64,000 bases of DNA from Terebella lapidaria (lineage: Eukaryota; Annelida; Polychaeta; Terebellida; Terebellidae), in assembly GCA_949152475.1 (NCBI GenBank), contig OX424560.1:6138001-6202000 (forward strand), in the 5' to 3' direction. Shown in pieces: positions 26,250 through 57,714 of the stretch. Every line of letters starts with the position of its first letter. Position 1 is the stretch's first letter. The position numbers and the translations under genes were made by a program. A model generated the notes under the pieces. That model had not been told where the DNA came from. It was given only the letters and a program-made list of their open reading frames with translations, and ran no database searches.

Positions 26250-26775
26250 TGTATTGCAGGTACTAGTATGACGTCTGCATAGTCCTGTATCCTTCACCTC
26301 GGTTCTGATGTAGTGGTACATCCTAGTAATTTACAGGTAAATCTACTTCTGGAGCAGTTGCATATGAACCAATAAAGGCAATGTATTGATATAGGCCTTG
26401 CTATAGGTCTTACTGGAGAGAGTAACATGGCTATCTGTTTCATTTGGTCATGATCTACCCCTCTAAGTACTCTCCTTTATTGTATCACAGGTTGTAGTAT
26501 ATGATGCCCACGCGCTGTTGTATTCTTCACCTCAGTTCTGATGTAAGCTTCGTCTTAATAATGCCCAGGTAAACCAACTGGTATTGCAGTTCCATATGAA
26601 CAAATAGATCTATGTGGAAATGATTGACACCACCATTTAAATGCCATTGTATTGATATAGGCAGAGACAGTAATACAATAAGACGTCTATCGAAACTCAT
26701 CTATTGTATTACAGATACTAACATATGATGTCCACTCGCTGTTGTATTCTTCACCTTGGTTCTGAAGTTGTTGAA
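26250..26775 (+). other. Three exon-like copies of the transposase start
   Basis: Three related modules at ~26259-26320, ~26482-26545 and ~26705-26770. Each has a splice-acceptor-like end (TGTATTGCAG, TTGTATCACAG, TTGTATTACAG). After it comes an ATG-containing segment encoding variants of TRCCILHLGS. The second is followed by GATGTAAGC, a good donor site. The third runs on into the long ORF. The first has an in-frame TAG. The inter-module sequences, with TATTGATATAGGC, are also related. This suggests tandem duplication of the first exon with possible alternative starts. Confidence 0.65.
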
Positions 26776-29700
26776 GAATCCGTGAAAGCCTTCAATGATG
26801 ACACCTGGAACAAAGTCAAGTCAGCTGCGGCAACTCGAAGGGAACGACCGGAAGCAAGATCATCAAAGTATTGGTCAGTTTGTGAAAATCTTCCAGAGAC
26901 AACTTCAAGCGAAGTTCATGGGTACCATAGCAGTTGCTACAGGAAGTTCACAGCTGTCCCTAGTATACAGGAAGCACAGTCTTCTAGCACAGAAGCAGAG
27001 GCGAGATCTGACACCAAAACTGTATTCCTGCGAAGTGACTCTCAGCCATATGTAACAAGTTCATCTGGAGTATTTGCAAACACGTGCATTTTCTGCAACC
27101 AGTCAAGGAGAAAGAAGAAAGGCAGAGAACTTCAACTTGGATCCTGTGAATATGACAATCCTGAATTCAAGGTTAGAGAAGCAGCACATACCCTGAACGA
27201 TCAAGATATGCTTGTGAAGATTGGCAGCACTGACTTCCACACCAAAGAAGTAAAATACCATCATGAATGCAAGAGGGAATACTTCAACAGAGCTCGCATG
27301 GCTTCCAATAAATCCAGTGAGAAGTCTGATGAAATACTGGAAAATGTTTTCAAATCAGTGGTTGATTACATAAAAGTTTCAGTTGTTCATGGAAAACGTC
27401 CAGAGTTCTTAACATCCTTGCATCGTCGTTATTGTGCTGAACTGGAAAGGGCATCAGGAGAAGATTCTTTGGCGGTGACTCCACTCTCAACACGGACTTT
27501 AGGGAAGAAGCTCGTTGAACACTTTGATGGGGTCATTACAATGGCGAAACGCAGCAAGAAGGATGGCTTGGTACTGTATGAAAGCAACTGCCCAAGGAAC
27601 AAAGCTCTTCAGATGGCATCAGACTGCAGTTCGTCAGAGGAGTTCACCATCAGAGAAGCAGCACGCTATATCCGCGAGCACATTCTGAGATTGATGAAAT
27701 CAACACCGGACCTTCCGACATCACCAAGCCTGGAAGATTTCCAAAATGGACAAGCTGAGCCCCCAGAGATACTCAATAAATTCTTTGATACACTCTACAA
27801 TGATAGTCAGAAAGGTATGTCAGATGGTATGCACAGACATGCTATCTCAGCAGCACAAGATGTCATTTATGCCGTGTCCAGAGGGAAACTGAAACCAGCG
27901 AAGCATCTCTGTTTGGGCGTAGGCATGAAAAGTTTGACTGGCAGCCGCAGAGTCATTGACATATTGAATCGTCTTGGACATTCAATAAGTTACCACACGA
28001 CTGAGGAGATCGAAACTGAACTGGCTAACGCTTTATCAGACAACAACCAGGTCCTACCTGATGGAATGTTGCAACAGGCTGGTCTGTCAACAGCTTTTGC
28101 ATGGGACAATTACGATGAGCTGACTGAAACATTATCTGGAAAAGACACGCTGCATGACACAGTAGGCATCTGTTACCAAAACGTGACAGATGCCAATACG
28201 CCTGTGGGACCTGGGAAAAGATCAGCGCCTACAAGCTGTGAAGAAACCCCAGCTAAGCGAAGAAGGGTGTTTGAGCCTCCAGAGAAAACGCTCACACCAT
28301 ACAGACAAAAACCCCACATGACAACATTTGACTTCAAGAAGTATGTTGCAGAGCCACCCACGAGCCTTGAAAATGCCCTGCAGAAAAACTTTATATGGAT
28401 GACACTCTGTGCACTGCACAAAGCTACTCCCATGTGGCGTGGATGGAACTCTCTCGTTCATGACAGTGTCTTGCCACCACAGAGAGTAGGGTACATGGAG
28501 AACATAGCTCTTCCACCAACCAGACTGGACGTTGTCCAAGAAACCATGAAAATCTCACAAAAATGCGCTAGAGAATGTGGGGAGAAATTCGCAATTGTTC
28601 ACTACGACTTAGCCATAGCTAAGCCAGCTCTTCAGATCCAAGCTCAAGAAGCTCCGATGTACGATGACGTCTTCATTTGCTTTGGGCCGTTCCACATAGA
28701 GATGACATATTTCGCATCCTTGGGCTACATTCTAGAGTCTTCTGGGGGCCCCGAGGTGCTGTGCAATGCAGATGTACTGGCTTCTGGCTCTGTGAATGGC
28801 TTCATGACAGGGAAGCACTTCAACAGGTGCAAGAGAATCCATCCACTACTGGCAACAGCACTACAGATCCTTCACTTTCGCAAGTTCATGGAAGATCATC
28901 CTCTGACTGACGAGTACAAGGAGTTACTGCATGAACTCAGCGAAAATCCAAGCTCAACAACACTAGTGGCTATTCAAGCATCGGATGTCTTCTCGAATCT
29001 CATGACCAGTTATGAAGAGTTCTGTGAATCAACACGGAGAGGCGAGTTCGGTGCAACAGCCAGATTTTGGATCAACTACATTGACCTGGTTCACACGTAC
29101 CTATTGCTGGATCGAGCCTGTCGGACCAATGATCTGGATCTCTTCGTGTGTGCTCTTGGAAGGATGTGTCCACTGTTCTTCGCAACACACCGCCCGAATT
29201 ATGCAAGATGGATGGTGCGCTACTACCTCAATCTTGTCAACATGGACGTCACTCATCAAGGGATACGGTCGATGTTTGAAGCTGGAGCACTGTCCATACA
29301 GCGAACATCAAAGCCTTTTTCACGCTCTGCTGTCGACCTTACCCTCGAACAAACAGTGAACAAGGATGCGGCCTCCAGACAGACAGGCATCAGCGCCTTC
29401 ACACAATGTGTGAATGCACGTAAGCGATGGACAGTAACTCGCCCAATCAGGGGTGCTGTTGTAAGCTGCCTACTGAACATGACTGGGCTGACAGTGAAAG
29501 AGGAGGTTTCTCAAGAACTGAAGCCATATCGAGTGAAGAGGGACAATGATGACTTGGAGAAGATTATGAACGGGCTGGAAGAGACGATGAATCCATTTGA
29601 ACTGGCACCGACTGATCAACAACTGTACTGTCTGACAACTGGAAAGCCAGCATCAGTAGAGGTTGCTAATGATCTGCTGGAAGCCAATGAAAAAGGGGCC

Positions 29701-31305
29701 ATCTGGAACAAAGAGTTCGTGGAAGGCTGCCAGAAGGATGCCAAGCGGTTCGAGGAGCCAATCAAACGCCGAAAGGTCAAAAACTTCACACATGATGCTG
29801 TGATGATGAAAATCAAGACGAAAGACCTGAAGGTTCAAGAAGTCAGATGCACCAGAGACCTGTTCGGGCGTCTGTTGTACCTTGCTGCATCACAGGGAAT
29901 GGAATTGGATACCGTCTTGGCCTATCCACTCACTGCAGTGCCCTTGTCACTTGCCCATATCAATGGATCTATGAACAAGACCAACAAATCTGCACTGATG
30001 AAGAAGCTGGAGATGAACGCACCAGTGGAACAGTCTGTCGACGTCGACATGTACCTCATTGATGGCATGTTCTTCATGCGCACAATACCAAATCTGCCAG
30101 CTACTTACGGTGGTGTAGCAAAGGCTATCATGCACCATGCACTTTCCCATGCTCGTGTCGTGCATATTGTATGTGACACATACACGGACCGACCTACTGT
30201 CAAAGGCCAGGAACGGGCTGCACGAGGAGATACCCATGCAGGGTACACCATCACAGGACCATCACAGCAGAGGCCGGGTGACTTTCATCAGGCACTGCTA
30301 TCGTCATCCTTCAAGACGAACCTGATGAGATTCCTCACTGATGAATGGACCACACGGATGTATGCCACAGAACTCGAAGGGCATATACTTTACTTTGCAA
30401 CTGAGGAAGGCTGCCACAAGTACGAGGTTGACGGTGGGGAGGTTATCCGGTCCACAGTGGAAGAGTTGGCATGTGACCACGAGGAGGCAGATACGAGACT
30501 CCTTTTCCATGCCAACGTCATTGCCCAGACAAGAGAGGACCAACCGTGTATAGCTGTTCGTTGCAATGACACAGACATATTTGTCCTACTTCTGCACCAT
30601 GCCAAAAACATCAAGGCAACACTGTGGATGGACGCAGGTCTCAGCTCAGCGAACACACGACGACTCATCAACATGTCTGCCTTGGCAGAAGATTTGGGCC
30701 TCGAGGTTTGCATGGCCCTGCCTGGCATCCATGCATTCACTGGTTGTGATTTTACTGCATCATTCATGCGCAAAGGCAAGGTGCGACCCTACCAATTGAT
30801 GTCGAAAGATCGGCTCTACACAGAAGCTTTTGGGAAGCTTGGCGAGTCCATCCTGCCAGGTGATGATGCGACCAATATGATCGAAGCATTTGTGTGCTTG
30901 ATGTATGGTGCCTCCAAGCTCAAAGACGTGAACGAAGCCAGGTTCCAGATCTTCAACAGGATGTATGCTCCAAGTGCTCCGGATCGCCCACTGGAGAAGA
31001 TCAAATCTTCAGACCCTTGCTGCATTCCACCTTGCAAGCCAGTTCTGATACAGAAAATCAAACGAGCCAATTTTGTCACACACTTGTGGAAGAACGCCCT
31101 GATGGCACAACCGATCGAATTCGGCCCAGTTGGGCACGGCTGGGAACTGGATGAGAACAACAACAGCTTGATCATCAAATGGTTTGAAGGGAAACAAACA
31201 CCACAGGATATCAGGATGGAAAGTGTGAACAGTGGCGACCAAGACAGTGATGATGAACTGGCTTATCACATGTCCTCTGACGAGGAGGTTGACGAGGAAT
31301 TCTGA
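26725..31305 (+). CDS. Academ-like transposase, RNase H-like core plus FEN/XPG nuclease
   Basis: 1526 residues, one uninterrupted exon. N-terminus: two zinc-binding-looking modules, C53...H68-x2-C71 (HGYHSSCYRKF) and C121-x2-C124...C141...HHEC at 179-182. Middle: an AWDNYDELTETLSGKDTLHD block near 460, then YDLAIAK (D628), GPFHIEM (E659) and LEQTVN (E875). These resemble the spaced acidic positions of RNase H-fold transposases, but that assignment is inference. C-terminus ~1105-1350: D1113 (LIDGMFF), D1151 followed by K1160 and E1163-R1164, E1254/D1256 (EEADTR), D1282/D1284 (CNDTDIF) and D1342 (GCDF). These align in order with the seven metal-binding acidic residues of FEN1/XPG nucleases. The end is acidic. 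The start at 26725 is the first in-frame ATG of a double ATG; an upstream exon is possible. No Academ-type helicase motifs are visible. Confidence 0.9.
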   Translation: MMSTRCCILHLGSEVVEESVKAFNDDTWNKVKSAAATRRERPEARSSKYWSVCENLPETTSSEVHGYHSSCYRKFTAVPSIQEAQSSSTEAEARSDTKTVFLRSDSQPYVTSSSGVFANTCIFCNQSRRKKKGRELQLGSCEYDNPEFKVREAAHTLNDQDMLVKIGSTDFHTKEVKYHHECKREYFNRARMASNKSSEKSDEILENVFKSVVDYIKVSVVHGKRPEFLTSLHRRYCAELERASGEDSLAVTPLSTRTLGKKLVEHFDGVITMAKRSKKDGLVLYESNCPRNKALQMASDCSSSEEFTIREAARYIREHILRLMKSTPDLPTSPSLEDFQNGQAEPPEILNKFFDTLYNDSQKGMSDGMHRHAISAAQDVIYAVSRGKLKPAKHLCLGVGMKSLTGSRRVIDILNRLGHSISYHTTEEIETELANALSDNNQVLPDGMLQQAGLSTAFAWDNYDELTETLSGKDTLHDTVGICYQNVTDANTPVGPGKRSAPTSCEETPAKRRRVFEPPEKTLTPYRQKPHMTTFDFKKYVAEPPTSLENALQKNFIWMTLCALHKATPMWRGWNSLVHDSVLPPQRVGYMENIALPPTRLDVVQETMKISQKCARECGEKFAIVHYDLAIAKPALQIQAQEAPMYDDVFICFGPFHIEMTYFASLGYILESSGGPEVLCNADVLASGSVNGFMTGKHFNRCKRIHPLLATALQILHFRKFMEDHPLTDEYKELLHELSENPSSTTLVAIQASDVFSNLMTSYEEFCESTRRGEFGATARFWINYIDLVHTYLLLDRACRTNDLDLFVCALGRMCPLFFATHRPNYARWMVRYYLNLVNMDVTHQGIRSMFEAGALSIQRTSKPFSRSAVDLTLEQTVNKDAASRQTGISAFTQCVNARKRWTVTRPIRGAVVSCLLNMTGLTVKEEVSQELKPYRVKRDNDDLEKIMNGLEETMNPFELAPTDQQLYCLTTGKPASVEVANDLLEANEKGAIWNKEFVEGCQKDAKRFEEPIKRRKVKNFTHDAVMMKIKTKDLKVQEVRCTRDLFGRLLYLAASQGMELDTVLAYPLTAVPLSLAHINGSMNKTNKSALMKKLEMNAPVEQSVDVDMYLIDGMFFMRTIPNLPATYGGVAKAIMHHALSHARVVHIVCDTYTDRPTVKGQERAARGDTHAGYTITGPSQQRPGDFHQALLSSSFKTNLMRFLTDEWTTRMYATELEGHILYFATEEGCHKYEVDGGEVIRSTVEELACDHEEADTRLLFHANVIAQTREDQPCIAVRCNDTDIFVLLLHHAKNIKATLWMDAGLSSANTRRLINMSALAEDLGLEVCMALPGIHAFTGCDFTASFMRKGKVRPYQLMSKDRLYTEAFGKLGESILPGDDATNMIEAFVCLMYGASKLKDVNEARFQIFNRMYAPSAPDRPLEKIKSSDPCCIPPCKPVLIQKIKRANFVTHLWKNALMAQPIEFGPVGHGWELDENNNSLIIKWFEGKQTPQDIRMESVNSGDQDSDDELAYHMSSDEEVDEEF

Positions 31306-38568: not shown

Positions 38569-39929
38569 GGTCAGCTGTGTGCTCCACCAAACCATCATCA
38601 ATATTGTTGACTAAATTACTATCTGCTGTAAAGGAAGGACTTCAGAAGTATTGTGATACTGCTTATTCCAGAAGTGGAATTAATCAGATGTGGGTTTTGA
38701 AGAATTCAAAAGAGCTTATTGAAAGTCTCAAATCACGCTGATTTCCACAATAACCAGTATCAAAACTTTTGACTTTTCTACCCTTTACACAACCATACCT
38801 CACTCTAAACTTAAAGAAAGGTTGAAAAATCTCATATTACAATCCTTCTTCCATAAGAATGGGAAAAGACATTATAAGTACCTGGTAGTTAATTATCAAT
38901 CTGTTTATTTCGTTCAAGAACATTCAGCATCAGACACTAAATATACTGAAACCGATGTTGTTGGTATGCTGGAATTTCTAATCGACAACATTTTCAGTTT
39001 GGTGGTGAAATATTCCAACAAACTATTGCGATTCCAATGGGGACTAGTGGTGCTCCATTGTTGGCAGATTTGTTTTTATATTCACACGAAGCAGAGTTCA
39101 TACAATCGCTTCTGAAGAGAGGAGAAAAGAAACTAGCCAGTTCATTCAATTTTACATACAGATACATTGACGATGTATTGTCATTGAACAATCCAAAGTT
39201 CAGTGATTATTTACATCTCATATATCCGGATGAACTGGAAATTAAAGACACCACAGACTCCTCCAAGTCTGCAGCATATCTTGACCTATACCTCGAAATA
39301 GACAAAAATGACAATCTATGTACCAGATTATATGACAAACGTGATGACTTCAATTTTCCCATCGTAAATTTCCCAGTACTGAGTAGTAACATACCAGCAG
39401 CTCCTGCGTATGGCGTCTATGTGTCTCAACTCATTCAATATGCTAGAGCATGTTCCAATTCCCAAGATTTTCTAGCCAGAGCCAAAATGCGAACTGATAA
39501 GTTATTAAAGCAGGGCTATTTGAGACCTAGATTGCAGTCGACCTTTAAGAAGCTTTATGGTCGTCATCAGGAATTAATAGACCATTTCGGTCTTTCTGTA
39601 ACTCAGATGATGGGAGATATTATCACATCATGATGATTGGTACTTGTAGAGTCGTTATTATAACCTAACTATGTCCTTCATCTCGATGGCATTTATTTTG
39701 GATATCACAGTGGGTGTCGCATGCGAGGCAAGAGAAGCTTACTCTTACTGGTACACCTGATCTCACATTTGGCTTAGCCGGATGTCTGTGATATTCAAAT
39801 TGCTCGGACCTTGATCACCAATTTTGAATTTTTGTCCAACCTTAACATACCGATTGTGTAAATTTTGTCCCTGGATTTTGAGTTTAGTCTTGCGGATTGT
39901 TTGGTGTTTGGTATCATACTTGTCTTTAG
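38569..39929 (+). pseudogene. Penelope-like reverse transcriptase, 5'-truncated insertion
   Basis: Inserted in copy A. Copy B has the uninterrupted sequence near 54350. A TTAG tetranucleotide flanks both ends (38565-38568, 39926-39929). Homology to the 56-kb Penelope ORF begins abruptly at SAVCSTK and continues through SRSGINQMWVLKNSKEL. A frameshifted SKLLTFLPFT region follows, then ADLFLYSHEAEFIQ, YIDDVLSLNNPKF (39150-39190) and LYDKRDDFNFPIVNFP. The last frame (39037-39633) ends at a natural stop after YGRHQELIDHF. At least two frameshifts disable it. No GIY-YIG domain is seen. Confidence 0.85.
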
Positions 39930-41699: not shown

Positions 41700-42961
41700 T
41701 CACTCATTGAAAACATGACAACTAAGTGAGTGTAAATGATAGAAAATGTAGTGAAGTGTGGGTTCACCCATGGCGGTTTGGGCCCGTGTTTTGATACGGC
41801 TCTGGCTAGAAAAGCCACATTCACAGGCTACAGAAGCCAGTGGTGATGTGGTTAGAGTAGAAGTCAATGTTCGAAAATCTGGGAAAGCTTCCCCGATTGA
41901 TGTGGTGGTTAGCATCTTTCACAGAGCAGGTAGGCCGATCATTGGATCCAAAGAGCGAAGGAAGTTCTTCCACCTTGGGTAATCGTTACACATCCTCCCA
42001 GAATCTACAAGCGGAGGCAAGGTTATCTGCTGGTGGGCTTCCTCCAGACCTATCTTGGGATCATTGGCTTATCGGTTATCACCGAAGGCTTCACATACTC
42101 TCTCTAGCGCAGCTCTGTGTTCGACGGACTCGTCTGCTCCTCTATCTACCCGGCCCGGATTCAGCAGGTGATCAACGTCTCCAAGAACTTTCATCGATGT
42201 GGGCTCAAAGGTGCTCCAGATTCTTCACAATTTTGTCAATGTAATGGGCTGCGTTACGTATTCTTGAATACGACGCGGAAACTGGCTCGGTCAGTAAGTG
42301 CATGGTCCTTGTAGTTGGTGATAATTCCCGCCACGTATGGACCGATTTCTTCATAGGCAAATTTTAGCATGGGGCCGCCGCTTTCTGGTAACCGTTTTAA
42401 GGTAGATATGGTACTGTTGACCATCGGACTCACCATACTTATATCTAGGTTGTCAGCCTGGGAGCATTTCGACAGTTTATCAAGGATTGACATTATGTCC
42501 ATGAAGGGTGCAGTTGTGAGGAAGAACTGAATGTTTTTTTCAATTTCAGGAGAATGCCTTTGACCTGGTCAGCTCCACCAGTTTTGCTTGCCTTCTCATG
42601 TTCTAGTGCCTCTAGTAGTGTCTCGTATACTTTACACACAGCCAAAGCTAGCTGGCTCGTAGACGGTTATAACGCACAGATGAATCATGGTAGTATCTGT
42701 AGACCATTTTCAGAGTACGTTGATATTCTTCAAAAGCTTCGACATCTCGCATGGCCTGCCCAGCTGCTAATGCTAGTCGATGCGCTACACAGTGGATTCC
42801 GATCATTGAAGGGTTGTAATTTCGCAGCAGCTTTGCCCTCCAGTTGTTCCCGTCATTACTGAAGCACCATCAGTAGCGAGAGATATAACTTTGGAAAACG
42901 ATAAGTTCCAGTCTAACGCGAACTTTCGCACTGTTCCGGCTATCGTCTTCACCGTCCCATC
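41700..42961 (-). pseudogene. hAT-like transposase remnant, 3' part, split by the Polinton-like element
   Basis: On the minus strand from 42960: a frame with KVISLATDGASVMTG (near 42880), the catalytic-core ..TDGA..M motif. Then, frameshifted, GIHCVAHRLALAAGQAM (near 42780), the conserved CVAHRLAL block. 42254-42502 is open (FMDIMSILDKLSKCSQADNL). The end (41700-41915) is a hAT dimerisation-like segment (ASVACECGFSSQSRIKTRA). Several frameshifts are present. The 5' side of the gene continues beyond the Polinton-like element at 50750-50825. This type resembles the DUF4371/ZMYM-like hAT derivatives. Confidence 0.8.
42956..42961. repeat. Left target-site duplication CCCATC
   Basis: Identical to 50750-50755 and immediately outside the TIR. 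Its 6-bp length is the Polinton/Maverick signature. Confidence 0.92.
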
Positions 42962-43823
42962 AGTAGTTAGGACCGCACTTTAGGCAGGTTTTTCCAGGTT
43001 TCGGTTTCGGGGGTTTTCCCGTGGTTATATGACGTCACTTCCGGTTTCGGTTTCGGTGGTTATATGACGTCACTTTCGGTTTCGGTGGTTATATGACGTC
43101 ACTTTCGGTTTCGGTGGTTATATGACGTAATAGGTGGTTATACGATGTAATAGATGACGTAATAGGTGGTTATACGACGTAATAGATGACGTAATAGGTG
43201 GTTATATGACGTAATAGGTTTTTATAGGATGTGATAGGTGGTTATACGATGTAATAGGTGACGTAATAGGTGATAATACGATGTAATAGGTGGTTATATG
43301 GCGTAATAGATGACGTAATAGATGACGTAATAGGTTTTTATAGGATGTGATAGGTGGTTATATGGTGGTTATATGATGTAATAGATGGTTATGGTGTACA
43401 TAATAGGCCTAGATGTGGTTATAGGACATAATTGGTTATGCAATAGGCACTATAGATGGTTTTGCAACATCAGTTTCGTTTTCTACATTCATAGATTGTG
43501 TGATAAGTGACTCAATAGGTGATGATTGGCTCAATAGGTGATGTAATAGGCCTAGGTGATGCAATGGGGTTATGACAAGGTCATGTGGTTGGGTTGGTTA
43601 CAGTTGGGTATGTGATAGGTTACATATATGGGTTGTAATCAGGTTGTAATAGATGATTAAGTAATAGGGGCTTGCACAATAGGCCAGGTAATTATGACGT
43701 CACCAGCATCCCCCTTTCGAAAGGACCAATCAGAGCCCCGGAATGCATGTGTGCATGTTCAGACAAGTCCCCCACGCTCATTAAATGACGTCACTACCGT
43801 CCCCCATTCGAACGGACCAATCA
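42962..43823 (+). repeat. Left TIR of Polinton-like element
   Basis: Inverted to 49900-50749. Roughly 43020-43400 is an irregular minisatellite of GACGTAATAGGTGGTTATA and GATGTAATAGG words. It includes several TGACGTCA palindromes (43030-43037 and following) and others near 43697 and 43785. The inner border lies at GGACCAATCA. Confidence 0.9.
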
Positions 43824-46800
43824 AGCTTATTGTATAGGCCATATTGTATAGGTCATACTTATGTATGTTTTAACTTTGTATCAGTTATATATGCACACTG
43901 GGAAACTCATATTCACAAATGACTGTATATCGCAAAATAAATCTTTTACGCAATATTATACACTTTATTTCAACTTTTAAAACCGAACCATCGAATCATT
44001 CAAATTATCATGCGATTATGTTCGTTACCCTTCTAAACTTGTCAGAATGAACCAGTCACATCGAGCTTATCCTCAACGATAAGTGATACGTGTACTGAGT
44101 AGATTGTGGGCGAATAATGACGTACAAGTAATATTATTGATATTGTAATGAACCTCCCCATGTATAAATTTATCTTGCTACTCTGAGAGGACGGGTAAAC
44201 ACGGGGTAGGTGACGCAAATGAAATTCCATATAAATATCCTATTTAAAACAAATCTTGTTTCTGTCCCCGTTACTCTTGTATGTATGATAGAGAATTAAG
44301 TTTGTTTTAAATCATATCTCCTTTTTTCGTCTGAAGTTTCATCGTTTTTTTTTGTACTTTTGGGCGCGCGGTTAAAGTCGGCAGTTAAATCACAGCCTAA
44401 TCGGTATGCCTTGGCGACGAGGAACCTACGATCGAATGGTCCCGAACCTGAATGGCACCTTGTCCCAGTGCTCGAGAATTATCGGGGTACGGGATATATA
44501 ATTCCCTTTCACCAGACACTTAGCGTGTTATCGCGGCCTTGTACCCTCACGGCTCAAACACACGTCATCGTCATCTGGTTACTGATAACCGTTTACCATC
44601 CGCGTTTAGCCCCTTGTCTGCAGGTACCGACGGCTCAATGCAAAGTAAAAATACTCAGAACATTGAAGGATTTAACTCGCCATTGCACAGCGCAATCTCT
44701 CAGACGAACCAGCGCTCGTGTATATTACGGAAATTTGATTATGTTAAATCGTGTTGGAACCAGTCATATATTCTCTACGAAAAGCGGAAAAGGGGATAAA
44801 TGCATAGCTATATTCTTTTTATCAGACTTGGGTGGAACATTTTAAATAAAGTTATCATTCCGTGCTTACCCTACAATGTGTAACACGCTCTAGTCTGCAT
44901 CCACCACGATGTAATATTTTCACTTTTTATATCCCCTCGCGGGTCACCGGCTATTAATGTCGGGGAAAGTTGTGATGTGAACGTTATCACAGCCGCGCGC
45001 CGAATAGCCCGATTACATTTTACACTGCCGAAAACTATCAAATATACCTCCTTTCAAACGAATGTAGTGCGTGGTTTAATCCCGTATAATGTTCTACTAT
45101 TGGTCATTCGATGCGAGTGTATTCTGAGTATTTAGCGTTGGCCGGCCCTGTAAACTTTTGATGCCCAGCGCGGTAGAGTTATTTTAGCAGTCTGGAACCG
45201 CTGTACGCGTACCAGCCCTGTACTGAAGTGTGTGGGGTGTAACCTCCAGACAGGCGTGGGCCGGATCCTCTGGCTGGCTGGTAGAACGTGTGCGCTGTGA
45301 ATATCGATTTTTCTTTGTTAGGGCTGGAAACTCTTGAGGCCTTCAGGTAGATCCGTATGCGTTATAAATCTGTATCCCCGTGTTCCGCGTATTCTCGGCG
45401 AGACCGAGTCAAACTCTCTCGGCACATTAACTCTCCAAACGGTACATTATATTTTGAAAATATATCCTCATTCTGTCGCGTTCTCGTAGACTTTGGAATG
45501 AATTTATCCAGCTTCTCACTACTCTATATACCCACGCTCAAAGCCGTGACGTTGAGTATCGCGTCGCGTGGGGTGGGGGAGAATGCCTCTATCCTGGCGT
45601 AAAATATCGCGTCGCGTGGGGTGGGGGGACGCGGGTACCAGTTGCATACACTCCCGGAGTTCATAGACTATAGCACGCAAAAGCGTCGGGTGGGGGAGTG
45701 AGATGGAAGTAACGTGGACAAATACGGTAGGCGTACTTCCGACCAATAGTAACATTTTACGAGTGTAATCCAGTTTTCTGGATCCAGCATGCTCTAAAAA
45801 TAGAAATCCTTCCATAATGCTTATTCATATAACTCGAGCCGAATTCGAATGAAGTTCCCCCCGCTACCGGACTGTATATAGTTGCACCCAGCCGGGGTAA
45901 AATAGTAATTCTACAATAAATATATGTATCGTATCAACCCCGGAATGTCCATAGAGTTACACCATTTCATTACCATCTCAATTTGGGACAACGCAGTTAA
46001 TGGTTTGTTCTCCTTCTGCGCTATATCATTATTAATCATTGGTAATAATAACGCAGGTCGCGCATTTATCCTTCGAGGTGTAAAATATTGATCGAAAATA
46101 GCATATAAGGATTTTGACTGATAATTTGAACCAGTTATATATTATGGTCTGAAAAATTAATTTGCGAGCATGTATGTTCATCGGAGAAAAGCGTGCGGGG
46201 GGAGGGGCGGACTTGTGGAACCTGTATCAGCGCGAATACACGCGGCATTGGGTGTGGGCAGAGTGATACACGGCGGTGATAGTATAGGTGGTGGGGGGGA
46301 TTAGTTAGAGGCGATTCTACGCCTCGGGAAAGTTTTAAAACTGATACACGTTGTGCTATCGCGCAAGACTTTTCTTTGTATGCATTGTCCCATAATTCAG
46401 AGACGGTCTTCATTTTTGTATTTATGGTTAGTGATTATGGCGTCTTCATTGTAAGTTATTTTACAGTTTATATCACATTGAGCGTGCATTATTATCCAAC
46501 GTGCTTCATTTATTGTGCGGCGCTAGCCGTACTATATCTGTTAGTGTAATTTTGACCCCATGGTACTACTGGTGAGGAACTTGTCCATGCGTGGACTTAT
46601 TGCTACCGAATTAAGTCAGCGATGACATTATCCATATTTCATGTCACAATCTAAGATTACAACAAAGTTAAGTAGCAAATATTGAACAAAGAAAACATAC
46701 ACCTTTGTCATTTGTGGAAAGTGCAACTAAAACCCATTTTGGCAAGAATAATGGACGAATCGACAAACAAATGCGAGTAATAATCAATTTTCGCATGGAC

Positions 46801-47400
46801 AAGCTCTGCACTGCACCAGTATTGGAGGTATTATGGTAGTGTAAGACCATCTACGAGAATTGTTCTCTGTGAGAGGGAAGTAGAGAGTTATTACAATACG
46901 AGTTCGAGTTACAATACGATTCGAGTTCATTGTTTCATATTGTTATCAAACTAATCAATAGGCTTTAAGTTAATTTGCAAATAGGCCTATTGTGTGAGTG
47001 AAAACACACACCATAGTCCTTTGTGGAAAGTTCAACCAAAACACATTTGGGCAAGAATAATGGGCAACTCAACAAAAGAGCAGGTGAGAATCAATTTACC
47101 CATGGACATCAAAATATTCGACAGGTTGTCATAACGTTCAGGTTCACAATTAGAATTTTTATATCACATGGAAACAAGACCCACAATATTTTGTTTGGTT
47201 GTTTAACCAAGAAATGTGTTTCGTGTCTACTTATCCTTGATTTTTTTTGTGTTCACTCAGCCTGGAGTACTGGTTCTACTCTCCTTTGTCCCTGTGGCCG
47301 CACACGTAACCTCAAGTTCTGCTGTTGTGATGCTTGTATATGCTTTATCTAACGCGAAGAAAACATGTAAAACATATCATACATGAAGAAAACGAGTAAT
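43824..47400. other. Unassigned interior of the Polinton-like element
   Basis: About 3.6 kb without a recognisable gene. 44340-46430 is more GC-rich than its surroundings and holds a direct repeat of ATCGCGTCGCGTGGGGTGGG (near 45559 and 45607). ORFs at 44360-44845 (161 aa), 45519-45815 and 46135-46413 lack motifs. 46691-46802 and 47000-47108 are ~110-bp direct repeats. On the plus strand both encode a related peptide (FVESATKTHFGKNNG versus FVESSTKTHLGKNNG), possibly the residue of a duplicated gene. Confidence 0.5.
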
Positions 47401-47410
47401 TTTTCCAGTT

Positions 47411-47416
47411 TTTATT
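47411..47416 (-). terminator. Polyadenylation signal AATAAA
   Basis: Canonical hexamer on the minus strand ~135 nt beyond the ATPase stop codon, followed by T-rich sequence. It is a reasonable end for the ATPase transcript. Confidence 0.5.
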
Positions 47417-47550
47417 TCACAGCACACAATATTTACAATTTCTACACATTTTTTTTTTTTTTTTAGTTTTTCGCAAAATTTTGTATTTTTGTTCGCTAAA
47501 CTACGCATGCACAATATACAGTTATCATGGCAGATATGGGGTAGGGTTTC

Positions 47551-49518
47551 TTAATATTCAATGTCCTCATCCATGGAGTCCTCTTCTTCCGGCTGAACGA
47601 TATCGTCGAAGAGATGATTGAGTTTCTCCATGGACAAATTAAGGGCTTCCTCGAAGTTGGCTCCCCGTCCCATATATTTTTCCACAACTTTCATGATTTC
47701 TGTGTGGATCATGCTTCTTTGCAACAAATGGTTCATCTTTACCATGGTTTTGTACATTTCCATCAACCCCGTCTTCATTTCCAGTTTCACCTCATCTTCG
47801 GGCAACTCGGGTGTATATTCCATGACGCGATGCAGCAGGTACTCGAAGGCCGTTTCGCATATGTCATGGTCCTGGACTCCCTTGCATCCATTTTGGAACC
47901 AGCTTACGACTTGATCGAACCAGTCATGTTTCATCATGATAGCCATGTTGAGCGCATCTTTGAATGTAGCACCTCGCGCTCTGTATTCTTCAACTGCCTT
48001 TTCAATTTCAGCATGAATCCGACTTCTCTGGAGCAGATGGATGCAATTCGCCACTCTCTGGTAGGCATTAATCAATTCTTCTTTCGTTTTTTGCGCGACC
48101 TCCTCCTCCGACACTTCTTTTTCCTCAATTTCGCCCTGAACAGACTTCAGCATGCGTTTGAAGGCGCTTTCGTCCATTTTTCTGGGGAACTCGTCTTCCG
48201 ACGACTCCTCATCGTGTGCGGGACATCTCGGCAAATGCATTTGTAGCTCGTAGTTACTCGGAAACAGGGCTCCGCAGCTGAAACATTTCGCTGTCTTGTC
48301 CGACTGCCATCCCACGAATTTTGTGATACTTTGAGACGCTGCGGGCTGGTCCGGGGCTGGACTCTCGTTAGACTGACTGGGAAGGGGGTTCGGTCTCAGG
48401 CGTTTATCTTCCTGCGTTGTCGGTTTCAGGTCCACGACGAGATGTCCGTAGGGCTTTGAGGTTGCTCTGTCGAACTCTTGAAGAAACTTTTGGGGACAGG
48501 CGGGATACATTTGCCTGGCCAGGGTCATGATTTGCTGCTGATCGATAGGGTTTCTGAACAGAGTCAGATAATGACAGTTTCTCCTCTGAGTCGGGTCCTT
48601 GCTGTAGTAGAGGTTCTGGTTCAAGCAAATGACGCTCAGGTTCCGGTGGTGGCTCCCTTCCGTGAACAAGTCCGTGATTCTCGGATCCTTGGCGGAAATA
48701 GACATGAGGTCGTCCAGGATGATGACGTTATTGTCCGTTGGTGAGACGAAGTCATCGGAATCCAGATTGATAGGTATCCCCTGTATGAACTGCACAGGAG
48801 GCTGCACACTAGACCTTATGATGTCATAGAGGGGTTGCCATCTCTTGTACAGCCATATGATCCTGGTAGGGGCGGGGAATATTTGACCAGACTCCAAGAG
48901 GGATTTTACCCAAGCCGTCTTCCCACACCCAGTAGGTCCCGACACGTTCAGGGTGAAGGGGTGTTGAAATACCAGGGGATCCATATAATTGACGGACCAG
49001 TGCTTTTGCTGCTGTGGCTGAGGCTGAGGCTGAGGCTGTGGCTGAGGCTGAGGCTGCTGAGGCTGAGTCTGAGGCTGAGGCTGTGGCTGTGGCTGTGGCT
49101 GAGACTGAGGCTGAGGCTGAGGCTGCCAAGCCTGAGGCTGAGGCTGCTGAGGCTGAGGCTGAGGCTGTGGCTGAGGCTGAGGCTGCCAAGGCTGAGGCTG
49201 AGGCTGAGGCTGTGGCTGAGGCTGAGGCTGTGGCTGAGGCTGAGGCTGCCAAGCCTGAGGCTGAGGCTGCCAAGCCTGAGGCTGAGGCTGAGGCTGTGGC
49301 TGAGGCTGTGGCTGAGGCTGAGGCTGCCAAGGCTGAGGCTGAGGCTGTGGCTGAGGCTGAGGCTGCCTAGGCTGAGGCTGTGGCTGAGGCTGAGGCTGCC
49401 AAGGCTGAGGCTGCCAAGGCTGAGGCTGCGATGGATAATCCATATGGTGCAATTTTTGATGTCTTTTCAGGTCTTGCTTCCAATTATATGTCTTGTGGCA
49501 GAGAGCACAAGAATTCAT
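47551..49518 (-). CDS. Polinton-type packaging ATPase (FtsK/HerA-like, A32 family) with zinc fingers
   Basis: 655 residues, intact. A C2H2 finger lies at the very start (C4, C7, H20, H24). Residues ~28-168 form a Q-P/W-Q-P repeat of ~140 residues. The ATPase core follows, with Walker A GPTGCGKT at 194-201 and Walker B VIILDD at 265-270. Downstream are GSHHRNLSVICLNQN, a likely sensor region, and a conserved FRNP..QQ.M segment. These are as in the DNA-packaging ATPases of Polintons, adintoviruses and nucleocytoplasmic large DNA viruses. A C2HC finger (CFSCGALFPSNYELQMHLPRC) follows near 415, then an acidic linker. The end is two tandem ~60-residue helical repeats, each with LLQRS.IH.EI..(A/V)VE.Y..RGA. 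The first is near 470-530, the second near 580-640. The ATPase alone would be ~250 residues, so the flanking modules are unusual. Confidence 0.9.
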   Translation of the reverse strand: MNSCALCHKTYNWKQDLKRHQKLHHMDYPSQPQPWQPQPWQPQPQPQPQPRQPQPQPQPQPQPWQPQPQPQPQPQPQPQPQAWQPQPQAWQPQPQPQPQPQPQPQPQPQPWQPQPQPQPQPQPQQPQPQAWQPQPQPQSQPQPQPQPQPQTQPQQPQPQPQPQPQPQPQQQKHWSVNYMDPLVFQHPFTLNVSGPTGCGKTAWVKSLLESGQIFPAPTRIIWLYKRWQPLYDIIRSSVQPPVQFIQGIPINLDSDDFVSPTDNNVIILDDLMSISAKDPRITDLFTEGSHHRNLSVICLNQNLYYSKDPTQRRNCHYLTLFRNPIDQQQIMTLARQMYPACPQKFLQEFDRATSKPYGHLVVDLKPTTQEDKRLRPNPLPSQSNESPAPDQPAASQSITKFVGWQSDKTAKCFSCGALFPSNYELQMHLPRCPAHDEESSEDEFPRKMDESAFKRMLKSVQGEIEEKEVSEEEVAQKTKEELINAYQRVANCIHLLQRSRIHAEIEKAVEEYRARGATFKDALNMAIMMKHDWFDQVVSWFQNGCKGVQDHDICETAFEYLLHRVMEYTPELPEDEVKLEMKTGLMEMYKTMVKMNHLLQRSMIHTEIMKVVEKYMGRGANFEEALNLSMEKLNHLFDDIVQPEEEDSMDEDIEY

Positions 49519-49611
49519 GTTGCCTCTTCAACGTCTCTTCTTCGAATGACAGTCCCTAGCTGATATCGCCACTTTTACACTCTTCAGGAACGGGAACAGC
49601 AGTTGTGTACT

Positions 49612-49806
49612 TCAAAATGATGTCTTCCCTTGCTTGATCAGCAACTTGGCCCGTTCCACAGTCTGTTGTGTTGGTGTGACTAACTTTACCACTACTTTTT
49701 CTGTCTTGTCCGCCTTTTCATTGACAGTGTGGCTCTTTTTTTCTTTCTTTTCCTGTTGATATTTCTTCCAGGCATCCACTGCGGGAAGGTACGGCTTGAG
49801 GGGCAT
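49612..49806 (-). CDS. Small lysine-rich protein of the Polinton-like element
   Basis: 64 residues, starting MPLKPYLPAVDAWKKYQQEK, with a charged centre and a C-terminal VTPTQQTVERAKLLIKQGK helix-like segment. It lies 93 bp upstream of the ATPase on the same strand and ~60 nt downstream of a TATA box, the arrangement of a short viral-style transcription unit. I do not recognise a family. A role as a core, virion or regulatory protein would be speculation. Confidence 0.6.
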   Translation of the reverse strand: MPLKPYLPAVDAWKKYQQEKKEKKSHTVNEKADKTEKVVVKLVTPTQQTVERAKLLIKQGKTSF

Positions 49807-49865
49807 GTTGATCCTTCAGCATCCGAAATGCGAATGAGGAAAGCTCAGTAAGCTCAGTACAAAGA

Positions 49866-49874
49866 CTTATATAG
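49866..49874 (-). promoter_or_regulatory. TATA box for the 64-residue ORF
   Basis: CTATATAAG on the minus strand, immediately inside the right TIR and ~60 nt before the ATG at 49806. A CCAAT-like ACCAATCAGA (49900-49909) lies ~30 nt further upstream at the TIR border. Confidence 0.65.
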
Positions 49875-49899
49875 TTTTCTCCTTCGAAATGCTCGATTC

Positions 49900-50749
49900 T
49901 GATTGGTCCTTTTGAATGGGGGACGGTAGTGACGTCATTTAATGAGCGTGGGGGACTTGTCTGAACATGCACACATGCATTCCGGGGCTCTGATTGGTCC
50001 ATTCAAAAGGGGGATGCTGGTGACGTCATAATTACCTGGCCTATTGTGCAAGCCCCTATTACTTAATCACCTATTACAACCTGATTACAACCCATATATG
50101 TAACCTATCACATACCCAACTGTAACCAACCCAACCACATGACCTTGTCATAACCCCATTGCATCACATAGGCCTATTACATCACCTATTGAGCCAATCA
50201 TCACCTATTGAGTCACTTATCACACAATCTATGAATGTAGAAAACGAAACTGATGTTGCAAAACCATCTATAGTGCCTATTGCATAACCAATTATGTCCT
50301 ATAACCACATCTAGGCCTATTATGTACACCATAACCATCTATTACATCATATAACCACCATATAACCACCTATCACATCCTATAAAAACCTATTACGTCA
50401 TCTATTACGTCATCTATTACGCCATATAACCACCTATTACATCGTATAACCACCTATTACGTCACCTATTACATCATATAACCACCTATTACGCCATATT
50501 ATCACCTATTACGTCGTATAACCACCTATTACGTCATATAACCACCTATTACGTCATCTATTACATCGTATAACCACCTATTACGTCATATAACCACCGA
50601 AACCGAAAGTGACGTCATATAACCACCGAAACCGAAAGTGACGTCATATAACCACCGAAACCGAAACCGGAAGTGGCGTCATATAACCACGGGAAAACCC
50701 CCGAAACCGAAACCTGGAAAAACCTGCCTAAAGTGCGGTCCTAACTACT
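49900..50749 (-). repeat. Right TIR of Polinton-like element
   Basis: Reverse complement of 42962-43823 with few substitutions and small copy-number differences in the GACGTAATAGG words. Confidence 0.9.
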
Positions 50750-50825
50750 CCCATCATGCACACTCAGACTTTGAAGATAGTTGACAACTGGAAAACCATC
50801 ACTCTTCACATATCGCACGTATATG
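50750..50825 (-). pseudogene. hAT-like transposase, 5' side of the Polinton insertion
   Basis: 50750-50755 is the CCCATC duplication. The next ~70 bp on the minus strand encode RYVKSDGFPVVNYLQS, the hAT segment that normally precedes the catalytic part found at 42960 downwards. The two fragments are collinear across the element, so the host sequence was a hAT-like gene. Confidence 0.7.
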
Positions 50826-56388: not shown

Positions 56389-57714
56389 CTAGTTGCATGG
56401 CAGACATGGATTTGCTGTATTTATCAACCAGATCATGATGACGTCCATAGAGACTAGTTTAGAGACTAGCTGGGCACTTCGATAGACAAAGTCCTCATAT
56501 TTGCAACTAGCTCTGGAATAGCGTATAAGTTGAGAAACAAACACACCATATGCCGGTGACATAGGAATGTTGCTGCTTAGAAAAGGGAAATTGACTATGG
56601 AAAAATTGAAATCATCACGTTTGTCATATAATCTAGTTGACAGGTTAGAATCATTATCAATCTCCAACCTCAGGTCTAGATAGTTGGAAAAAGTAGCGGA
56701 TTCTGTAGTATCCTTAATTTCAAGTTCCTTAGGATATATGATATCCAAATAATCACCAAACTTGGGATTATTTAGCGACAATACATCATCTATGTATCGG
56801 AAAGTGAAATTAAAATTACATGTTAGTTTCTTAGAACCTCCTCTTTGTAAATGTTGGATAAAATCTGATTCATATGAGTATAAAAACAGGTCTGCCAATA
56901 ATGGTGCACAGTTTGTACCCATGGGAATACCAATAGTTTGTTGAAATATTCGACCACCAAATTCCACAAAAATATTATCAATCAGAAAATCAACCATATT
57001 TACCACATCTATTTCAGTATATTTGTATGGGGCATCAGAGTCGCCTTTAACAAAATAAGCGGTATTATATTTAACTACAATATAGTGGTACCGACGTTGT
57101 CCCTTTTTAGAGAAAAATGAATTATTGATTAGTTTTTTAAGCTGAGATTTCAGTTCAGAATGAGGTATAGTTGTGTACAAAGTGGAGAAATCAAATGTTT
57201 TGATAGACGTTACTTTTGAAAGTGTGTGCGCATGTAGATATTCCAATAAAGATTTGGAATTTTTTAATATCCACATTTGGTTTATACCACTTCTAGAATA
57301 GATGGTTTCAGAGTACTTTTGGAGACCCTGTTTAATTTTAGACAATATAGTAGTTAATATTTTAGAAAGGGCTTTGGTAGAACATGATGCTGAACCTGAA
57401 ATATATCTTTGTTTGTGTGGATTTTTGTGCAACTTTGGGATCCAATATAAGTTCGGTAGATTAGAATCTTTACATGAGGTAGTAATACCAAACGAATGCA
57501 ATACAGACAAATGATTTGATAAGATATCCTGTTTGGGCACGGTAATGGCTTGGTATGTACTATTGGGATTAGTATTGTTGGCAATACCCAGTTCGTCAAA
57601 CAGGCACTGTATATAGTATGCTTTACAAACAAAAACAACATTATTAGAAGCTTTATCTGCAGGGACAATGACGAATCTGCAGGGACAATCTGCAGGCTTT
57701 ATCTGCAGGGACAA
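56389..57714 (-). CDS. Penelope-like element reverse transcriptase, partial
   Basis: 441-residue ORF. Motifs: FVIVPADKASNNVVFVCK (14-31), PKLHKNPHKQRYISGSASC (93-111), FDFSTLYTTIP with the first catalytic aspartate D175, GIPMGTNCAPLLADLF (262-277) and YIDD (307-310). LYDKRDDFNF follows near 363. These fit Penelope-like RTs common in molluscs and cnidarians. The first ~13 residues come from a microduplication of CCTGCAGATAAAG sequence (57660-57712). The C-terminus after residue ~422 is out of frame: another frame gives GRHHDLVDKYSKSMS, so a small deletion has removed ~20 residues. No GIY-YIG endonuclease domain is present. Probably inactive. Confidence 0.85.
   Translation of the reverse strand: MSLQIKPADCPCRFVIVPADKASNNVVFVCKAYYIQCLFDELGIANNTNPNSTYQAITVPKQDILSNHLSVLHSFGITTSCKDSNLPNLYWIPKLHKNPHKQRYISGSASCSTKALSKILTTILSKIKQGLQKYSETIYSRSGINQMWILKNSKSLLEYLHAHTLSKVTSIKTFDFSTLYTTIPHSELKSQLKKLINNSFFSKKGQRRYHYIVVKYNTAYFVKGDSDAPYKYTEIDVVNMVDFLIDNIFVEFGGRIFQQTIGIPMGTNCAPLLADLFLYSYESDFIQHLQRGGSKKLTCNFNFTFRYIDDVLSLNNPKFGDYLDIIYPKELEIKDTTESATFSNYLDLRLEIDNDSNLSTRLYDKRDDFNFSIVNFPFLSSNIPMSPAYGVFVSQLIRYSRASCKYEDFVYRSAQLVSKLVSMDVIMIWLINTANPCLPCN

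Follow-up and report, generated by a model that had tools for sequence, protein, structure and literature searches.

We analyzed a 64,000-bp stretch of the Terebella lapidaria genome (assembly GCA_949152475.1, 761.6 Mb in 438 contigs; contig OX424560.1, labeled C6, positions 6138001–6202000), hereafter the window, and in it a 7,788-bp element at positions 42962–50749. With slightly better than even confidence, we take this element to be a copy of a proliferating, non-autonomous, helper-dependent Maverick/Polinton family that keeps its own A32-like ATPase gene and a 64-aa open reading frame (ORF). The family has Maverick ends and 6-bp target-site duplications, it has inserted independently many times, its ATPase is under selection, and the same genome contains elements with PolB, a family B DNA polymerase, behind the same terminal inverted repeats (TIRs).

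An earlier note on this DNA had described a perfect CCCATC duplication, AG...CT termini, and TIRs of ~855 bp; these were confirmed, and the coordinates proved exact. The two perfect 6-bp copies of CCCATC lie at 42956–42961 and 50750–50755. Between them, the left TIR (42962–43823, + strand) starts with AGTAGT and contains GTGGTTATATGACGTAATAG-type tandem repeats with TGACGTCA motifs, and the right TIR (49900–50749, − strand) terminates with ACTACT, so that the element has the AG...CT ends of Polintons/Mavericks in the form (AGT)2//(ACT)2. The TIRs (862 and 850 bp) are identical in 832 of 850 aligned columns and are further separated by one 12-bp insertion or deletion (indel). A chance inverted repeat was considered as an account of the element and rejected. 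When the flanks are joined without the element, a 77-aa open frame spans them; the ORF that was split resembles one of another transposon, which we presume to be hAT/ZBED-like.

The ATPase gene occupies 47551–49518 on the − strand (ORF 47551–49527; 655 aa counted from the ATG) and is intact, as had been claimed. The ORF matches Pox_A32 with E = 5.4e-5 (23.2 bits, cut-off 22.8) and the ATPase piece alone with E = 6.1e-6 (26.3 bits); the A32/FtsK-type ATPase of Polintons/Mavericks is therefore represented, the curated Pox_A32 cut-off being exceeded by a small margin. The protein consists of an N-terminal C2H2-like finger, a PQ-rich tract, the A32-like ATPase domain (motifs GPTGCGKT and VIILDD), a second C2H2-like finger, and a duplicated C-terminal motif; the finger matches score under the Pfam cut-offs, and part of this motif reading is our assumption. 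Upstream of the ATPase lies the 64-aa ORF (MPLKPYLPAVDAWKKY..., 49612–49806, − strand), which is preceded, again as the note had it, by a TATA box (TATATAAG, 49866–49873, − strand) accompanied by a CCAAT box (49902–49906). A PDB search by sequence gave the ATPase a single chance match (E = 0.63), and single-sequence AlphaFold returned no usable model of its domain (mean pLDDT 34). PHROGs had no match for the three proteins queried, and neither IMG/VR (searched by protein and by degenerate pattern) nor phage records yielded relatives. Two observations concern variable parts of the protein. The C-terminal motif, LLQRS-IH-EI ... RGA-F-AL, is found twice in window 47551–48180 (− strand) with no Pfam match above cut-off, and the PQ tract is 85–188 residues long in the measured rows of loci L021–L040, with the frame intact throughout.

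The remainder of the element between the TIRs is mainly the interior (43824–46513, + strand), which we read as non-coding. It contains 76 stop-to-stop pieces of at least 30 aa; the 29 of at least 50 aa were scanned for protein families and gave no Polinton gene, the sole match being weak and to an unrelated family (PID_2, E = 0.002). The pPolB, integrase, protease, and capsid genes expected of an autonomous Polinton had no match in the scanned ORFs or in these 29 pieces, consistent with the claim that no other gene is recognizable. The interior as a hidden gene was rejected because indels there break the frame (29 of 39 distinct indels in five aligned interiors of elements of this type).

We searched the host genome with the ATPase protein and scored 67 ATPase genes of 8,407 first-look candidates, which gives a lower bound: at least 67 ATPase genes are present at 57 places, 10 of which are divergent pairs. 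The main match is stop-free in 51 of the 67 genes and contains a stop in 16; an extra stop, at C9:37486394, sits in the second piece of a gene scored as stop-free. Other copies with the same gene set thus exist, as the note had proposed to look for, and a one-off deletion as the origin of the window element was rejected given their number. Screening with PF04665 returned nine candidates over the host genome and two weak matches, none among the 67 ATPases, which means that its first-look filter was too strict to be informative.

We read twenty 10-kb stretches around ATPase genes, the loci being picked in protein-score order, and found at least three architectures among the ATPase-carrying elements. 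Class A (the window element, L027–L034, and L036) runs from TIR through non-coding interior, ATPase, and 64-aa ORF to TIR, the interior measuring at most 2.8 kb and only ~0.3 kb in L034. Class B (L021–L026) comprises palindromes of 5,552–5,983 bp with an arm divergence of 0.2–0.95%; each arm contains one of two divergently oriented ATPase genes (1 of the 12 is stop-interrupted, in L022), and the short unique center holds a single 64-aa ORF. Class C (L037, L039, and L040) is 5.4 kb long, has different TIRs, and carries a 316-aa ORF, the 64-aa ORF, and the ATPase on one strand. A fourth set, class D (L035 and L038), is 99.5% identical over 7.4 kb and visible at one end only. TIRs, as in Polintons/Mavericks, are present in each of the three main classes (862/850 bp in the window element, ~345–390 bp in class C, and the 2.5–2.8-kb arms of class B). 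Seven of the 20 stretches had one end of the element outside and were left out of the end-to-end set; in all 14 end-to-end elements (five of class A, six of class B, and three of class C, the window element included) the 6-bp target duplications are perfect, and all of them are different. The AGTAGT-type motif stands at both ends of the window element and of 11 other end-to-end elements, and AGCAGC occurs at one end of L023 and at both ends of L026.

Copies of all three classes have the 64-aa ORF upstream of the ATPase; its start is unmatched in L025 and L032 and its end is changed in L029. The TATA box and the CCAAT box both recur in classes A and B (the L033 TATA box differs by one A>T change), and the TATA box is absent from class C copies. 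The 316-aa ORF of class C is open in two of the three elements (L037:2310–3257, + strand, and L039) and closed in L040, and it has no match in Pfam, PDB, or PHROGs.

Selection on the ATPase was measured over up to 484 codons downstream of the PQ tract. The mean ratio of nonsynonymous to synonymous substitution rates (dN/dS) was 0.29 within class A, 0.22 within class B, and 0.135 within class C (3 pairs); between classes it was 0.20–0.24 for A-B, A-C, and B-C, 0.24 for A-D, and 0.35 for B-D. Counting nonsynonymous (N) and synonymous (S) changes by site, which avoids the dependence among pairs, gave an excess of S over the expectation of 75.6% N in class A (9 rows; singletons N:S = 31:26, P = 3.9e-4; shared changes 7:7, P = 0.034), in the shared changes of class B (12 rows; 4:10, P = 2.8e-4), and in the shared changes of all 27 rows (40:59, P = 1e-13). 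The ATPase is thus under purifying selection across copies, a point that the note had proposed to test. Relative to the window, a single 3-nt indel was found in the coding part of seven class-A copies (L028, which is cut by a stop, and L031, which has no anchor motif, were excluded), compared with the mostly frame-breaking indels of the interior. In the ATPase tree, class B (100/100), class C (99/98), and nine class-A rows (99/99) form clades. L036, structurally of class A, is on a separate branch and has a class-C-like 64-aa ORF, and the element classes therefore seem to recombine.

A polymerase gene was found on other elements. Searching the host genome for DNA_pol_B_2, with 91 of the 115 candidates scored, gave at least 123 matches at ~60 places, none within 50 kb of any of the 67 scored ATPases (nearest 51 kb, next 329 kb; the distances used 76 of the 123 PolB rows, and the other 47, checked by eye, are at those same places). 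We also searched with the inner TIRs, taking the best 40 of 163 candidates for type A and the best 40 of 619 for type B; places were counted from the 40 best rows of type A and the 39 best of type B without smaller repeat pieces, within a 9-kb radius of our own choice. Among these scored rows, type-A TIRs occur at 33 places, of which 11 have a scored ATPase, 10 have PolB, none has both, and 12 have neither; 7 of the 12 contain the class-A interior, so that an unscored ATPase may sit there. Type-B TIRs occur at 23 places: a scored ATPase accompanies them at 12, PolB at none, and neither gene at 11, six of which are paired ends 2.5–4.1 kb apart. At one PolB place, L041, 851 bases were read; they start with AGTAGTTAGGGGGG, and over the first 478 bp they match the TIR of the ATPase element L030 at 99.4% identity. 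When the class-A interior was used as a 2,201-bp query (best 40 of 87 candidates scored), six of the 10 PolB elements were found to carry positions 1–1397 or 1–1523 of it, at 86% identity, between TIR and PolB; in the window, this common stretch corresponds to 44300–45822. Judged by sequence, ATPase and PolB elements have a common TIR and ~1.5 kb of interior and are different beyond. The relatives with shared TIRs that the note had suggested seeking are these PolB-bearing elements at 10 type-A places.

Other PolB matches form patterns of their own. About 19 places (e.g., C1:99145369, C14:63370, and C15:31252218) have near-equal scores and a 440–481-aa open frame with part of PolB, followed in most of them by a stop-holding part; they may be a further repeated family in which a piece of the polymerase is retained. 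Inverted PolB pairs ~12 kb apart (C1:2934797/2946534 and C16:15682539/15694430) are possibly larger palindromic Polintons.

We propose that the common ends would act in cis as signals for a helper's protein-primed polymerase and integrase, and that elements with matching ends would supply both enzymes in trans and so mobilize the ATPase elements. The ATPase would be retained as an advantage to the elements that encode it, most likely by loading their own DNA into helper-made capsids. On the simplest reading, the class B palindrome would have arisen by copy-back during linear, protein-primed replication and later become a separate lineage. Copy-back defective adenovirus genomes, in which one end is duplicated into a large palindrome, likewise arise under protein-primed replication; class B, unlike them, is a lineage of many integrated copies, most of which have both ATPase genes open.

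Several observations weigh against this proposal. The packaging role is read from the protein family to which the ATPase belongs. That no element has both genes is a statement about the 67 best-scored of 8,407 ATPase candidates, and a diverged ATPase may be present in the PolB set. At least two type-A TIR pairs are 1.3 and 1.7 kb apart, with no space for an ATPase, and four type-B pairs are 2.5–2.7 kb apart, with barely enough, which indicates that the ATPase is not required in cis for movement. The PolB behind matching TIRs is mostly split into two open frames (~130–184 and 434–439 aa), with a stop in several matches, so the PolB set may itself be defective. No integrase or capsid gene was seen in the sequence read; PF00770 had no match in the host genome, but it also had none in 14 controls and is uninformative. 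Constraint on the ATPase is clear for older changes and weak for private ones (class B singletons N:S = 13:8, P = 0.12; singletons of all 27 rows 39:18, P = 0.14), which is expected if copies decay once inserted. Moreover, both the choice of loci by score and the use of open-frame coding rows favor intact copies, and the dN/dS and indel controls are softened accordingly. The ATPase may be a dispensable aid to the element; alternatively, unseen relatives may be the source of the selection. The packaging satellite of the earlier note is supported in part: the copies, the selection, and the PolB relatives with the same TIRs agree with it, while packaging by the ATPase and a helper with capsid and integrase keep their conditional place in the proposal. 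The alternative under which the note would have given it up, a solitary copy made by a single internal deletion, does not describe a family of many copies.

The short copies could instead be passive deletion derivatives of autonomous Polintons with this ATPase, and the selection would then be that on unseen autonomous relatives. We regard this as possible, if on the unlikely side. It would account for the spread of same-TIR elements without space for an ATPase, for the TIR and ~1.5 kb of interior common to class A and PolB elements, as deletion or recombination predicts, and for singletons being less constrained than shared changes, the arms of the class B palindromes differing by 20.5 N to 10.5 S in total, which is near neutral. 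However, each class has one structure, so that much of its divergence postdates its origin, and yet mean dN/dS within classes is 0.135–0.29; moreover, the same gene is retained by elements with different TIRs, and no PolB match was found close to any of the 67 scored ATPases. The separation of PolB and ATPase on common-ended elements, within the scored lists, also makes a divided Polinton genome conceivable. PolB and ATPase would then be on separate integrated elements with near-identical TIRs and subterminal DNA, each spreading as a segment of a bipartite or multipartite whole, with class C, which has the 316-aa ORF, as an additional kind of segment; this we consider doubtful. Bidnaviruses, which have single-stranded DNA and a PolB-type polymerase, are bipartite, their genes being distributed between linear segments; the likeness is by description and would hold only if the elements are indeed bipartite.

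Two further readings concern what the ATPase does. Together with the 64-aa ORF it might be an accessory of replication or integration, with finger-like ends binding the TIR repeats, and not a packaging motor. The C2H2-like fingers that flank the ATPase domain (weak matches), the repetitive TIRs, and the 64-aa ORF that travels with the ATPase are compatible with such a role, but the best family match is Pox_A32, which we take to be a packaging ATPase, and the DNA binding is putative; we hold the accessory role to be improbable. Alternatively, the host may have retained the gene in a domesticated or antiviral role, apart from the spread of the element, which could explain why 51 of the 67 copies are stop-free in the match. 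Dozens of dispersed copies, with their own duplications in 14 of 14 delimited elements and class B arms only 0.2–0.95% diverged, point to an active element; the ATPase as a host gene was considered and rejected, and a host role retains a very small probability.

Returning to the helper-dependent family that we favor, its features can be set beside known systems. According to PMC8097293, intact vertebrate Mavericks most often end in (AGT)2//(ACT)2 and also have 6-bp duplications. Like the elements described there and in the corresponding parts of PMC4028283, those reported here combine such ends and duplications with an FtsK-like ATPase; the TIR lengths given (46–1,447 bp) include the window type and class C, and the class B arms exceed that range. 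Intact vertebrate Mavericks measure 12.7–24.6 kb in the same sources, compared with 5.4–7.8 kb here, and unlike them the ATPase elements yielded no pPolB, integrase, protease, or capsid gene. Maverick particles were unobserved at the time of PMC8097293, according to the part consulted. The portion of Krupovic et al. (2014, PMC4028283) used here lists nine Polintons without a major capsid protein that also lack the ATPase and protease; virion genes are likewise lost in our elements, but the ATPase, lost there, is retained here, which is the opposite pattern. Some phage-inducible chromosomal islands (PICIs) are satellites that carry terS, which directs preferential packaging of satellite DNA (PMC6092414). 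They are analogous, and only analogous, in combining their own packaging gene with a helper virion; they are bacterial, encode integrase and replication genes, and have demonstrated helper packaging (PMC6092414), whereas such packaging is conjectural here. The literature that we searched contained no report of ATPase-only Polintons, and no paper was returned when non-autonomous Polintons were searched for as a phrase. Repeat libraries do hold non-autonomous Polintons.

An 820-bp insertion (46514–47333) next to the interior of the window element is absent from 9 of 9 other class-A copies compared and holds an imperfect internal 77-bp repeat (46691 and 47000). Elsewhere in the window, an intact 1,527-aa ORF (26722–31305, + strand) is probably another transposable-element protein, and ORFs at 56389–57714 (− strand) and 38950–39633 (+ strand) resemble what we take, from their motifs, to be Penelope-type reverse transcriptase.

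A selected ATPase in elements from which the other Polinton genes are gone is hard to explain unless the ATPase serves the element, and mini-elements that keep it make Polinton DNA packaging testable in one host. The class B palindromes have the look of protein-primed replication products that became fixed. If genes are truly split among common-ended elements, Polintons can be multipartite; if the helper-dependent reading is true, the family would be a eukaryotic counterpart of phage satellites with their own packaging gene.

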